Origin: Williamsia faeni
Lineage (GTDB): Bacteria > Actinomycetota > Actinomycetes > Mycobacteriales > Mycobacteriaceae
Assembly: GCA_003202005.1 (NCBI GenBank)
Contig: QJJF01000001.1
Span: 961,099 to 1,025,098, forward strand
Length of the DNA: 64,000 nt
Direction: 5' to 3'
Notes under the pieces: model-generated
What the model saw: only the letters and a program-made list of their open reading frames with translations
What the model was told of the DNA's origin: nothing
Databases searched by the model: none
Shown: piece after piece, positions 3,342-62,097 of the stretch
Position numbering within the stretch: the first letter of the stretch is position 1
Layout of the letters: each line of letters begins with the position of its first letter
Translations under genes and position numbers: made by a program

Positions 3342-4727
3342 TTAGCCGCGCGCCATGTCGACGAATTTGCTGAGGTGCAGCTGATGGGCGACCGTGATGG
3401 TGGCGGTCGGACCGTTACGGTGTTTGCCCACAATGATATCCGCCTCACCGGCGCGTGGATCGTCGCGTTCGAAGGCATCGGGGCGGTGCAGCAGGATGAC
3501 CATGTCGGCGTCCTGCTCCAGTGATCCCGATTCACGAAGGTCGGACACCTGGGGGCGTTTGTCGGTACGTTGCTCGGGACCACGGTTCAGCTGACTGATC
3601 GCGACCACCGGAACTTCGATCTCTTTCGCCAAAAGCTTGATGCTGCGCGAGAATTCAGAGACCTCTTGCTGACGGGACTCCACCTTCTTGCCCGATGACA
3701 TCAGCTGCATGTAGTCGATCACGACAAGCTTGAGATCGTGCTTCTGCTTCATCCGCCTTGCCTTGGCACGGATTTCCATCATCGTGAGGTTGGGTGAGTC
3801 GTCGATGAACAGTGGCGCCTCGGAGATTTCACCCATCCGCCGCGCCAGTCGCGTCCAGTCGTCGTCGCTCATCCGGCCGGCGCGCATGTCACCGAGTTTG
3901 ATCTTCGCCTCGGCGGAGAGCAACCGCATGACGATCTCGGTTTTGCTCATTTCCAGCGAGAACATGGCACTGGCCATGCCGTGCTTGATCGAGCAGGACC
4001 GCAGAAAGTCCATCGCAAGTGTCGACTTACCGACACCGGGGCGTGCCGCGACGATGATCATCTGGCCGGGATGAAGTCCGTTGGTGAGTTCGTCGAGATC
4101 GTGAAAGCCCGTCGGCACACCCCGGGAGAGCCCACCCGTTGAGGCGATGGAGTCGATCTCGTCCATCGTCGGCTGCAGCAACTCTTCCAGTGGCACATAA
4201 TCTTCGGTGGTCCGGCGCTCGGTGACCTCATAGATCTCGGCCTGCGCACGGTCGACCACTTCGGCCACATCCTGACCGTCTGCACCGGCGTAACCGAACT
4301 GCACGATGCGGGTACCGGCCTCGACGAGCCGCCGCAGGATCGACTTCTCGGCGACGATTTCGGCGTAGTAACCCGCGTTGGCTGCGGTCGGAACCGTGGA
4401 GATCAGCGTGTGCAGGTACGGCGCACCGCCCACTCGACGCAGTTCACCCATCCGGTCGAGCTGGCCGGCCACGGTGACAGCGTCGGCCGGCTCGCCTTTG
4501 CCGTACAGGTCGAGGATGGCGTCGTACACGGCCTGGTGCGCGGGCTTGTAGAAGTCGCCCGGGCGCAGCTTCTCGAGAACGTCGGCGATGGCGTCTTTCG
4601 AGAGCATCATTCCGCCCAGGACGGATTGCTCTGCAGCCATGTCCTGCGGAGGTTGACGACCAAAATCCTCGCTCGGGGGTGCCTGATCCCTAGGTTCGGC
4701 ATGTCCGCGGTCATCAACGACGGCCAA
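3342..4727 (-). CDS. dnaB: Replicative DNA helicase DnaB
   Basis: 461 residues, normal length for an intein-free DnaB. The N-terminal primase-interacting domain begins near residue 28 (AAEQSVLGGMM). The RecA-like motor has a Walker A RPGVGKST with lysine near residue 234, a Walker B VVIDYMQLM, and the C-terminal DLRESGSLEQDAD segment. It loads at forks as a hexamer that unwinds DNA 5'-3'. The start is TTG 4727 with GAAGGGTGG upstream; no in-frame ATG precedes the domain. No intein interrupts the P-loop, unlike several mycobacterial DnaB proteins. DnaA-box-like sites lie upstream. Confidence 0.96.
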   Translation of the reverse strand: MAVVDDRGHAEPRDQAPPSEDFGRQPPQDMAAEQSVLGGMMLSKDAIADVLEKLRPGDFYKPAHQAVYDAILDLYGKGEPADAVTVAGQLDRMGELRRVGGAPYLHTLISTVPTAANAGYYAEIVAEKSILRRLVEAGTRIVQFGYAGADGQDVAEVVDRAQAEIYEVTERRTTEDYVPLEELLQPTMDEIDSIASTGGLSRGVPTGFHDLDELTNGLHPGQMIIVAARPGVGKSTLAMDFLRSCSIKHGMASAMFSLEMSKTEIVMRLLSAEAKIKLGDMRAGRMSDDDWTRLARRMGEISEAPLFIDDSPNLTMMEIRAKARRMKQKHDLKLVVIDYMQLMSSGKKVESRQQEVSEFSRSIKLLAKEIEVPVVAISQLNRGPEQRTDKRPQVSDLRESGSLEQDADMVILLHRPDAFERDDPRAGEADIIVGKHRNGPTATITVAHQLHLSKFVDMARG

Positions 4728-19909: not shown

Positions 19910-19992
19910 TCGTCAAGAGTACGTGGCCCGGACCGGCAATCGTTCAGGGTCATCCGACGCGGCGGCTGTGAACAACCTCCCCGCCCGTCCGC

Positions 19993-20055
19993 CGACCGGG
20001 CCGAAAACCCCGTCGACCGTGCCCTTACGACCGCCGACCGTGCCAATCGGTGCAG
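19993..20055. repeat. Short array of the 21-bp GTGCC repeat
   Basis: Three 21-bp units begin CGACCGTGCC or CGACCGGGCC; GTGCC (or GGGCC) recurs at 19998, 20019 and 20040, exactly 21 bp apart. It lies in the divergent gap between DUF5318 and PadR. The mirrored right-hand half seen in the two larger arrays is missing here. Confidence 0.6.
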
Positions 20056-36926: not shown

Positions 36927-37400
36927 CCACCCCCTCACCCCCGCCGCCCCCTCCGTCGAGCGTGCCCTCGTTACCGCCGAGTGTGCCTAACCTGTTCGTG
37001 TCCAATCCGTTTCGGCACACTGGACGGCGATTTCGGCACGGTCGACGGTGGGATGGGCACGCTCGGCGGCGGGCGGGTGGCCGGTTGGGCACGGTCGACG
37101 GCGATTTCGGCACGGTCGGCGGCAGTATCGGCACGCTCGACGGAAGTCGGTCTGAGCACCGTCGACGGGCACAAAGTGCGGCCGCGGTCTGACCCCGCCC
37201 CCTCCGTCGAGCGTGCCGATAACGCCGCCGAGCGTGCCCTCGTTACCGCCGAGTGTGCCTAACCTGTTCGTGTGCAAGGAGTTTCGGCACGCTAGACGGT
37301 TATTTCGGCACGGTCGACGGTGGGATGGGCACGCTCGGCGGCGGGCGGGCGGCGGTTGGGCACGGTCGACGGTGATTTCGGCACGGTCGACGGGGGTGGC
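36915..37400. repeat. Duplicated, mirrored array of 21-bp GTGCC/GGCAC repeats
   Basis: This 500-bp gap between convergent SDR and ADH genes has no gene. Copy 1: GTGCC at 36962 and 36983, centre, then GGCAC at 37014, 37035, 37056, 37088, 37109 and 37130. Copy 2: GTGCC at 37213, 37234 and 37255, then GGCAC at 37286, 37307, 37328, 37359 and 37380. Spacing is 21 bp, with one 31-32 bp step in each copy. The copies are offset by 272 bp over most of their length and by 266 bp at the left edge, where the SDR terminal codons (GCCGCGGTCTGACC at 36915 and 37181) are included. Confidence 0.85.
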
Positions 37401-51452: not shown

Positions 51453-51517
51453 CCGATTTTGGTGGGTTTTGGCGTGCAAACCCGCAGGTCAGCCTCACCA
51501 AAACCCACCAAAATCGG
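51453..51517. terminator. Perfect 20-bp inverted repeat between convergent acyl-CoA dehydrogenases
   Basis: Arms CCGATTTTGGTGGGTTTTGG (51453-51472) and its exact complement (51498-51517), 25-nt loop. T-rich tracts are inside the arms. Likely bidirectional terminator. Confidence 0.75.
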
Positions 51518-59629: not shown

Positions 59630-60229
59630 ATGATCGAGGTCCTGTTCGTTCGGCATGGCCAGCCCGTCTCGGGGGTGCGTAATCCGGAATTGGCGCCCGA
59701 GGGCATCGCGGACGCCGAGAGGCTCGCCACCTGGTTGCGTCATGAGCACATCGACGCCATCGTCGCGAGTCCCCTGGCAAGGGCTCTGCAAACCGCCGAA
59801 ACCATTGCCGCCGGGCTTGATCGGGGGGTCGATCTCGTTCTCGAGGACCTCCGCGAATGGGACGACGACATCAGCCCGGAAGACTACGTGGCCCTGGAGG
59901 ACATGGGTCCCGACGATCCCCGGCTGCGTGCTGTGATCGATGGTCGTTTCGAGGACTATGTGCCTGCCCTCAACCTCCCCAAGTTCCGGGCGCGGGCACG
60001 GTCGGCCTTCGAGCAGATCATCGACAAGTACGGTTCCGGCCGCATCGTCGCGGTCGCCCATGGTGGAATCATCAATGCCACCATCGCCGACGTCCTCGAG
60101 ATGCCGAAGACGTTCTGGCACAACCCCGCCTACACGTCGGTGGCCCGGCTGCGGCGGCTCGATTCGGGTGTGACCATCGTCGACTGCATCAACGACACCG
60201 CCCACCTGCGCGGCACGGTGTTCGCGTGA
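59630..60229 (+). CDS. Histidine phosphatase family protein, copy 1
   Basis: 199 residues. The catalytic motif is FVRHGQPVSG with His9, and the second histidine is in VAVAHGGIINA. Between them is an acidic DLREWDDDISPEDY stretch. It hydrolyses phosphate esters by a phospho-histidine intermediate. It overlaps the next gene, a paralogue, by 4 nt (GTGA). Presence with PEP-synthase-like phosphotransferases suggests removal of phosphate from a pathway intermediate; this is inference. Confidence 0.88.
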   Translation: MIEVLFVRHGQPVSGVRNPELAPEGIADAERLATWLRHEHIDAIVASPLARALQTAETIAAGLDRGVDLVLEDLREWDDDISPEDYVALEDMGPDDPRLRAVIDGRFEDYVPALNLPKFRARARSAFEQIIDKYGSGRIVAVAHGGIINATIADVLEMPKTFWHNPAYTSVARLRRLDSGVTIVDCINDTAHLRGTVFA

Positions 60230-60855
60230 CGGAGTTGGTCGACGCAGGACAGGTGTCGACCGCCGACACCGTCGCCGCCGCGAGCACCATCATCCTGGTG
60301 CGGCACGGACTCCCCGCCGCCTCCGGTGTCGCCGATCCAGGTCTCGGGGACGAGGGCGTCGAACAGGCTCGACGACTGGGTGAATGGCTCCGGAATGAAC
60401 CTGTGGCACAGGTTGTCTCGAGTCACTACAGCCGCGCGTACGAAACGGCACTGTACGCCGCCGGGCCGCACGGTCTCGACGTTGTCGTGGACAAGCGGCT
60501 ACGCGAATGGGACAGCGACCGCACCACATACGCCACACCGGAGGCCATCGCCGACACACCCCGCGGACGAGCATTCGCCGAGGGCCGGTACGACGAATTC
60601 ATCCCGGACTACGACAAAGTCGCCGCCGCCGAGCGCATGCGCGCCGCGGTCCTGGAGGCTGCTGCACGTAAACCCGGAGAACTCACGGTGATCGCCTCAC
60701 ACGGCGGCGTGATCAACACCCTGCTCACCGACATCCTGCAGGCGCCATCTCCATTCTTCTTCAACCCCGGCTACACCTCGATGAGTCGTATCGCAGTGCT
60801 GCGGTCCGGGCGATGTGTCATCCAATCGGTGAACGAGACCGCGCACCTGAGGTGA
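60226..60855 (+). CDS. Histidine phosphatase family protein, copy 2
   Basis: 209 residues. After a 20-residue N-terminal tail comes ILVRHGLPAASG, SSHYSRAYETALYAAGP, RLREWDSDRT and VIASHGGVINTLL. It shares the general layout and the NPxYTSxxR end (NPGYTSMSRIAVL here, NPAYTSVARLRRL in copy 1) with the preceding gene, so the two arose by tandem duplication. The start is GTG 60226, inside the stop of copy 1. A 21-bp repeat array begins about 16 nt after its stop. Confidence 0.88.
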   Translation: MTELVDAGQVSTADTVAAASTIILVRHGLPAASGVADPGLGDEGVEQARRLGEWLRNEPVAQVVSSHYSRAYETALYAAGPHGLDVVVDKRLREWDSDRTTYATPEAIADTPRGRAFAEGRYDEFIPDYDKVAAAERMRAAVLEAAARKPGELTVIASHGGVINTLLTDILQAPSPFFFNPGYTSMSRIAVLRSGRCVIQSVNETAHLR

Positions 60856-60870
60856 TCCTCACCCCCACCA

Positions 60871-61095
60871 CCGTCGAGCGTGCCCAAATCACCGCCGAGC
60901 GTGCCAAACCAACCGTCGACCGCGCCCAAATACCCGCCGAGCGTGCCGAACCAACCATCGAACGTGCCAAAACTGCTTGAGTTATCAATCTTTGGCACGC
61001 TCGGCGGCGATATCGGCACGTTCGGCGGCGATTTGGGCACGGTCGGCGGCGTTTTGGGCACGGTCGGCGGGCTTTTCGGCACGGTCGGCGGGGGG
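60871..61095. repeat. Mirrored array of 21-bp GTGCC/GGCAC repeats
   Basis: This is most of the 349-bp gap before 61205; no gene. Five left units have GTGCC (once GCGCC) at 60880, 60901, 60922, 60943 and 60964. A 26-nt centre (AAACTGCTTGAGTTATCAATC and flanks) follows, then five right units with GGCAC at 60994, 61015, 61036, 61057 and 61078. Each step is exactly 21 bp, and left and right halves are inverted copies, so a long imperfect hairpin can form. Confidence 0.88.
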
Positions 61096-61204: not shown

Positions 61205-61999
61205 ATGAGCAAAGCCGGACTGACCGCAAGTCGCATTCTCGCCGACAGGTATTCGACCGTGGTACGTAGCCTTACACCTGATGAGTGGGAGGCACCGAGC
61301 CGCTGTGCCGGCTGGTCGGTGAAAGACCTTGTCGCTCACACCGGTTCCAACTTCAAGGTCATGGTGGATCCCCCGGAGGAAGACCCTTCCGTCCCTCCGC
61401 CCACGACCGCCGAGGAGCTCCAGAATCGACTCGTCGACGTGCGCCGTGACTGGACGCCCACCCAGGTCGCAGACGAGTTCCTGGCCAGCGTCGACGGCGC
61501 GATGGGTGTACTCGACGCACTGCAGCAGGACGGTCTGGCGTCGACGCCGATGACGCTCACCGACCTGGGAACCTATCAGTCACATCAACTTTCGGATGCC
61601 TTCGCTTTCGATATGTGGTGCCACATGTATGTCGACCTCCTCGGCCCGGAAGCGCCGGTGACCCGCGAGGTACCCGATCCCGAGGACGATCTGGTCCGCA
61701 TCGCCGTGGACTGGATGTGGTCGGGCCTGCCGCAGATGTGCAAGCCTGTGAGTGGCGTACTCGACCGTCCGCTCGGCGTGCGACTAACCGGCGCCGGCAG
61801 TGGCGAGTGGACGTTGAAGCCGGGCTCAGACCTCCTGGTCGTCGAACCCGGGTTGTCCATCGCCGACACCGTGATCACCTCAGCGGCAACAGATTTTGTC
61901 CTCTGGGGCACCACCCGATCACCGTGGCGCGAGCATGTCACAGTCGAGGGTGACACCGCCTACGCCGAGACCGTGCTCGACACCGTCGACATCGTCTGA
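61205..61999 (+). CDS. Maleylpyruvate-isomerase/DinB-fold mycothiol-dependent protein
   Basis: 264 residues. The N-terminal DinB-like four-helix domain has EWEAPSRCAGWSVKDLVAHTG (metal His near 47) and HQLSDAFAFDMWCHMYVDLLG (second metal site). The C-terminal 90 residues resemble the SCP2/MDMPI extension (VRLTGAGSGEWTLKPG, TSAATDFVLWG). Members use mycothiol as cofactor for isomerisation or S-transfer. It could process an intermediate of this pathway. Its promoter has the GTTACTTGAC element. Convergent with the MDR gene. Confidence 0.82.
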   Translation: MSKAGLTASRILADRYSTVVRSLTPDEWEAPSRCAGWSVKDLVAHTGSNFKVMVDPPEEDPSVPPPTTAEELQNRLVDVRRDWTPTQVADEFLASVDGAMGVLDALQQDGLASTPMTLTDLGTYQSHQLSDAFAFDMWCHMYVDLLGPEAPVTREVPDPEDDLVRIAVDWMWSGLPQMCKPVSGVLDRPLGVRLTGAGSGEWTLKPGSDLLVVEPGLSIADTVITSAATDFVLWGTTRSPWREHVTVEGDTAYAETVLDTVDIV

Positions 62000-62022: not shown

Positions 62023-62097
62023 GCAAAATTCGCTCCACCTCCCTGCATGTGATCCTGTTGCAACTGGATCGAACGCAGGGAGGTGGAGCGAATTTGC
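62023..62097. terminator. Long inverted repeat between convergent genes
   Basis: Arms at 62023-62046 and 62075-62097 are complementary over 23 bp except one extra A; core TTCGCTCCACCTCCCTGC; 28-nt loop. Likely bidirectional terminator. Confidence 0.7.

Follow-up and report, generated by a model that had tools for sequence, protein, structure and literature searches.

The array and its surroundings in the window

The stretch of DNA analysed here, called the window, is 64,000 nt long and corresponds to positions 961099-1025098 of contig C1 in the host genome (G000), an assembly of 5.52 Mb in 44 contigs. A mirrored array of 21-bp units lies at 60871-61091, outside any predicted gene, in a tandem gap with both flanking genes on the plus strand. 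Two further sites of the same repeat were found at 36953-37393 and 19989-20044, so that the window holds three sites. The features are as follows.

60226..60855, plus strand: upstream gene, histidine phosphatase superfamily (PF00300)
60856..60870, plus strand: C-rich linker (15 nt) separating the array from the stop codon
60871..60968, minus strand: left arm, five units, core starts at 60871, 60892, 60913, 60934 and 60955
60969..60993, no strand: centre, 25 nt (modal length in the host genome 26)
60994..61091, plus strand: right arm, five units, core starts at 60994, 61015, 61036, 61057 and 61078
61205..61999, plus strand: downstream gene, MDMPI_N domain (PF11716)
36953..37393, no strand: second site (L083), two successive mirrored arrays between convergent genes
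19989..20044, minus strand: third site (L082), one arm with three units, in a divergent gap and followed by a PadR gene

The cores of the left arm are on the minus strand, and their plus-strand reading is CCGnCGAnCGTGCC. In the stretch fetched around this locus (L084), the array occupies 4070-4290. The first-pass annotation had described the array through GTGCC at 60880, 60901, 60943 and 60964, GCGCC at 60922, and GGCAC at 60994, 61015, 61036, 61057 and 61078. All of these were confirmed, and so was the period, which is exactly 21 bp in all eight within-arm steps. The centre, given before as 26 nt, measures 25 nt from the last GTGCC to the first GGCAC.

The array strand is predicted to fold strongly (-162.9 kcal/mol; z = -12.0 relative to 200 shuffles), a result that the complementarity of cores in opposed arms would produce by itself. 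This fold favours a giant RNA hairpin, formed by pairing of the two arms in the transcript, which would serve as a bidirectional intrinsic terminator or stabilise the 3' end. No Rfam model matched the window at its gathering score. A separate long inverted repeat with 21-bp arms and a 28-nt loop was observed at 62026-62095, between convergent genes ending at 61999 and 62114.

Repeat unit and array anatomy in the host genome

The unit consists of a 14-bp core, GGCACG(C/G)TCG(A/G)CGG (GGCACGnTCGnCGG), followed by a 7-bp variable spacer with a frequent TT(C/G) at its end. It was characterised on 458 units in 58 stretches fetched around matches, with at most one mismatch allowed in the 12 fixed positions; this set is a lower bound, in which later contigs are represented through BLAST matches. 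The earlier claim that a core is kept was right, but five bases are not its extent, as the conserved part is the 14-bp core with 12 near-fixed positions. Of 318 same-strand neighbours separated by less than 120 bp, 280 have a spacing of exactly 21 bp, which means that the copies elsewhere in the genome keep the 21-bp phase.

At least 62 sites with three or more units exist in the host genome (58 fetched stretches). Nineteen of them are one-armed, 41 are two-armed and start with reverse-complement units, and two (L074 and L118) are inside out. A uniform arm orientation is therefore wrong, although it applies to 41 of the 43 two-armed sites. BLAST of the window array against the host genome gave 108 matches. 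When the whole genome was scanned for two cores 0-28 nt apart, 121 forward and 117 reverse pairs were counted and the reversed-pattern control gave 0 and 0; the occurrence of the array exceeds chance.

A centre of 26 nt is the commonest, found in 32 of 49 cases. The start-to-start distance across the centre is accordingly 40 bp in 32/49 and 39-41 bp in 36/49, and the rest are mostly 50-51 or 31 bp. For 31 centres in the 40-bp class, the consensus that includes the inner cores (54 nt) is a near-perfect palindrome. A single core is not its own reverse complement, and the palindromy comes from the opposed arms only.

A coding repeat was considered, as a 21-nt period keeps reading frames open. It was rejected because 59 of the 62 sites do not overlap a predicted gene (three do) and because some inner steps break the frame. 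Arrays were also seen about 100-450 nt from the ends of four contigs of the host assembly, C1 (end), C7 (start), C18 (end) and C24 (start). The repeats therefore probably break the assembly, and some copies are probably missing from it.

Occurrence in related genomes

The array is not unique to the host genome; further copies are present there and in congeners. Strict pairs of the repeat were found in 8 of 9 genomes of the genus, with 179 in the host and 0 to 39 in the others. Within the family, they were found in 11 of 301 genomes and 3 of 31 genera. The two of these family genomes that belong neither to Williamsia nor to G. araii (G151 and G097) were discarded as carriers, their strict pairs lying inside predicted genes. 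A three-unit scan of named genomes returned 45 stretches: 27 from Gordonia araii, 16 from Williamsia and 2 from an assembly labelled Kitasatospora arboriphila NRRL B-24581 (L018 and L044, genome G005). The last is probably mislabelled and belongs in the genus of the window. The repeat is thus found in Williamsia and G. araii.

In G. araii, 33 sites were counted in the fetched named loci. They are mostly single arms, often flush with a stop codon, and their neighbouring units are nearly identical. Beside one of its arrays, at 6580-6665 of L017, there is a different tandem repeat of the GTGCCCA(C/G)TCGGC type with a longer period. The search for GTGCC-N16 arrays proposed in the first-pass annotation was run across the phylum. 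It found four cores in step in 6 of 198 genomes; the five other than the host carry different sequences at 1-2 places each, and the reversed control of this search also matches the host genome (1 and 4).

The variable copy number among congeners, the restriction of strict pairs to a few genomes of the family and the near-identical neighbouring units of G. araii, as expected of slippage, would all suit a selfish or neutral satellite, spread by slippage and copying and surviving only past stop codons, where it does no harm. We regard this as distinctly unlikely. The cores change less than the spacers between orthologous arrays, arrays recur at orthologous gaps, and the arms keep register (see below). 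The Y1 (RAYT) transposase (PF01797) was also absent from 9 of 9 genomes of the genus, with the control positive in 5 of 14.

Position relative to genes

Genes were called by a codon-usage script, whose stops are more reliable than its starts. Around the 59 non-overlapping sites of the host genome, the gene ends facing an array are 3' ends in 88 cases and 5' ends in 27, and the nearest 5' end to any array is 18 nt away. The 62 sites fall into 34 convergent, 18 tandem and 4 divergent gaps, 3 gene-overlapping positions and 3 places without a neighbour. In these stretches, the gaps of 30 nt or more that hold no array number 13 convergent, 115 tandem and 46 divergent, a baseline biased against convergent gaps because array-bearing gaps were left out of it. 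The position at gene ends makes a role in termination or insulation likely, which had not been suggested in the first-pass annotation.

Gene 3' ends are also where an RNA hairpin would stand. When the array-free gaps of the host genome were searched for inverted repeats with a score of 12 or more, these were present in 65% of the 17 convergent gaps, 11% of the 98 tandem ones and 2% of the 43 divergent ones, and such frequent long inverted repeats in convergent gaps count in favour of hairpins in this role.

At 75 of the 88 array-facing 3' ends, the arm at the edge is C-rich in the mRNA. In these 75 cases the median distance from stop codon to array is 13 nt, and it is 8 nt or less in 31; arrays thus often start no further than 15 nt past the stop. 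A C-rich arm past the stop codon, together with the C-rich linkers, could form a rut-like region in the RNA and serve as a Rho loading site. This explanation seems to us very improbable: it leaves the conserved 14-bp core, the 21-bp step and the register all unaccounted for, and the strand preference, although strong in the host, is weak outside it. Of 38 arms that face a gene end in G. araii, 22 are C-rich and 16 are G-rich. Among tandem gaps, those where the arm sign is the same at either edge have a C:G ratio of 6:1 in the host, against 5:3 for named Williamsia and 5:5 for G. araii.

Two arrays, L082 in the window (19989-20044) and L017 6472-6569 in G. araii, lie in divergent gaps preceding PadR-family genes. 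PadR was considered as the array-binding protein; one promoter-side array in each genome, before genes of different size, was too little to retain it. A link with the origin of replication was considered as well; DnaA is located at C1:1134627 in the host genome.

Comparison of orthologous gaps

Twelve comparisons of orthologous arrays were made, with some loci used more than once. The fixed core positions differ at 41/826 (5%) and the spacer positions at 75/340 (22%), a count that somewhat favours the core because only one array in every pair served for calling the units. Positions 7 and 11 differ at 45/141, the centres at 13/159 and the flanks at 204/1270. Arrays are present at the same gap, with both flanks matching, for example in L075-L183, L083-L163, L095-L177-L196, L100-L180, L103-L189 and L109-L152; L163, the counterpart of the second window site, is from W. 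soli.

Other gaps have different contents in different species. By eye, the gap that holds array L094 in the host is occupied in 8 of 8 congeners by a long stem-loop of one of three sequence types, placed directly after the same stop codon. This replacement of an array by hairpins is a further point in favour of an RNA hairpin. The gene at the L116 gap is present in four congeners; by eye, one of them carries two array units there (L149), one a short hairpin (L148) and two nothing evident. In the gap of the window array at 60871-61091, no array was found in the seven readable congeners (the eighth, L130, reaches a contig end), and in G002 and G003 a single degenerate unit directly abuts the stop codon.

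A second repeat family was noticed at window 51463-51507 (G000:C1:1012561-1012605). It consists of TGGGTTnTGG-N25-CCAnAACCCA stem-loops, which among the matches listed are nearly always 45 nt long, though loops of 13-40 nt were allowed, and in which an inner TTTCCGCAGGTC-like loop recurs. There are 7 in G000 and 24, 0, 0, 19, 0, 26, 20 and 1 in G001 to G008. The L094 gap of G006 is filled by a stem-loop of this family.

Helical register between the arms

The centres of the host genome suggested that the distance between the inner cores follows a 10.5-bp rule, and the congener sites, fetched afterwards, provided an independent test. With near-duplicates removed, the 20 core-to-core distances in congeners are 2, 12, 20, 21, 21, 29, 41, 51, 52, 52, 53, 62, 63, 72, 73, 77, 83, 84, 86 and 104 bp. 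Sixteen of them deviate by no more than about 1.5 bp from a multiple of 10.5 bp, a tolerance chosen after the distances had been seen; one third is expected (p = 2.5e-5). The register holds across centre lengths from 7 to 99 nt in these 16, and the four distances out of register are 2, 29, 77 and 86. A Rayleigh test at 10.5 bp on the same 20 distances gave R = 0.72 and p = 3.4e-5.

All 12 non-modal distances of the host genome are in register as well, but the rule came from these data. None of the three G. araii centres is in register. When they were included in a free scan of periods from 6 to 20, the best period was 10.50 for the 21 distances of at least 15 bp and 10.35 for all 23; for all 23, 3 of 20,000 jittered sets matched the observed periodic fit. 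The congener distances are not fully independent, because a centre in which 21-bp units had gone undetected would add to the distance in steps of 21 bp. Such units would not yield two classes, however, and modulo 21 nine of the distances are near 0 and seven near 10.5.

Orthologous two-armed sites with both flanks matching allow the centres to be compared directly. The core-to-core distances of L083 (31) and L163 (21) differ by 10 bp, as do those of L165 (21) and L192 (31), and those of L177 (84) and L196 (52) differ by 32 bp. The other differences are 41 (L100, L180), 0-2 (L075, L183), 1 (L166, L171), 0-1 (L153, L157, L190) and 0 (L160, L174).

The idea that all cores of an arm must lie on one face of the DNA was not supported. 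The 23 within-arm steps other than 21 bp have no clear phasing (R = 0.40 at 10.5 bp, phase 1.6 bp, p = 0.026), and strict phasing inside the arms was dropped. The protein-binding scaffold proposed in the same annotation gained support, both from the register across very different centre lengths and from the slow change of the core between orthologues.

Base pairing between the arms

If the arms were under selection to pair, mirror units should match each other better than units from other sites at the variable positions. No excess was observed. At position 7, pairing was 0.43 in 140 mirror cells versus 0.49 for other sites; at position 11, it was 0.42 for mirror units versus 0.51; in the spacer, it was 0.35 (91 cells) versus 0.40. 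Whole halves pair at 17.52 of 27 positions, compared with 18.47 in shuffled combinations (31 centres). After removing similar centres (n = 15), the values were 17.27 and 18.00, and 4793 of 5000 shuffles paired at least as well as observed. An actual deficit of pairing between the halves was not upheld: only 2 of 2000 shuffles were as low in the full set, but 279 of 5000 were so once similar centres were removed. Our claim is limited to the lack of an excess for this reason.

As far as the sequences can tell, the missing excess of complementarity speaks against a selected RNA hairpin. Besides, 19 of the 62 sites have one arm only, and steps of 10.5 bp are not needed by a loop. The giant RNA hairpin put forward in the first-pass annotation is thus not favoured, and with its strong fold, its place at gene ends and the stem-loops of congeners taken into account, we consider it unlikely.

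Comparison with known systems

A search of the open-licence literature returned no description of this element. REP/BIME sequences of E. coli, Pseudomonas and other bacteria are described as high-copy extragenic repeats at gene 3' ends and in convergent gaps, often near the stop (PMC12306157, PMC3733652), and gyrase and IHF are among the proteins that bind some of them (PMC2817692). The array sites are likewise extragenic and enriched at 3' ends. In contrast to REP, a single array unit is not palindromic, each arm is a tandem row of 21-bp units, and the register between the arms is quantised. Identity with the REP/RAYT system was rejected, as no Y1 transposase was found in the genus. The arrays work most like BIMEs (PMC2817692), yet they lack two features that define REP.

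Plasmid iterons are regularly ordered direct repeats of about 17-22 bp, about two helical turns each, to which Rep binds cooperatively, and binding is lost when two iterons are shifted by half a turn (PMC4980987). The 21-bp step resembles this layout. The arrays differ in being opposed and in occupying dozens of chromosomal gene-end sites, and these 62 dispersed sites argue against a place in a replication origin bound by Rep. A plasmid or phage origin was also rejected. Plasmid records gave no match to the array, and four Xanthomonas phage records matched at 75% over 101 bases; the one inspected match is inside an annotated coding gene.

BldC of Streptomyces, an actinobacterial protein, forms a head-to-tail coat on direct repeats, and the tracts that it protects are spaced by one helical turn (PMC5859096). 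Its sites as given there are AT-rich, have a shorter repeat (AATTxxxxC) and lie at promoters, whereas the array core is GC-rich and located at gene ends.

Bidirectional intrinsic terminators share with the arrays the position between convergent genes, and the array strand can form a long stem. They differ in that the arrays lack excess pairing between arms, so that no compensatory change keeping a stem is evident at the variable positions, and in that many sites are one-armed. The mycobacterial interspersed repetitive units (MIRU) of related bacteria also abut stop codons; unlike the arrays, they have longer units and are reported between co-directional genes.

A proposed DNA-bound complex at gene ends

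The ends of bacterial genes are generally ascribed to RNA hairpins and Rho. The fixed core, the fixed step, the register between arms and the lack of excess pairing together point to a row of protein on the DNA. A barrier to transcription in both directions is suggested by the place past the stop codon, by the convergent gaps and by the replacement with hairpins in relatives. We therefore hold, with moderate confidence, that the array is a gene-end element, dispersed in the genome and recognised in the form of double-stranded DNA, on which a row of protein would form a barrier to transcription from both sides.

In the mechanism that we propose, a candidate sequence-specific DNA-binding protein would occupy each 14-bp core, and the 21-bp step would line up its molecules as a cooperative row along the DNA. 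Plasmid iterons offer a precedent for such cooperativity (PMC4980987), and BldC one for molecules laid head to tail on direct repeats (PMC5859096). The opposed arms would let both rows share one face of the helix, where they probably touch across the centre. Placed just past the stop codons, the complex may stop or insulate transcription coming from convergent neighbours, and it would do the job of the hairpins that stand at the same place in relatives.

More generally, and only as a tentative proposal, some actinobacteria may mark gene ends with a dedicated, chromatin-like and helically registered array of DNA-bound protein, which would act as a two-way barrier, stand in for RNA hairpin terminators and evolve its spacing in whole helix turns. 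That the arms keep a B-DNA register across some 20 to 104 bp suggests gene ends that a DNA-bound protein would set. About 60 natural replicates in one genome, together with natural one-turn variants at orthologous sites, are available for its study, and the arrays may give a clue to what separates convergent genes in GC-rich actinobacteria.
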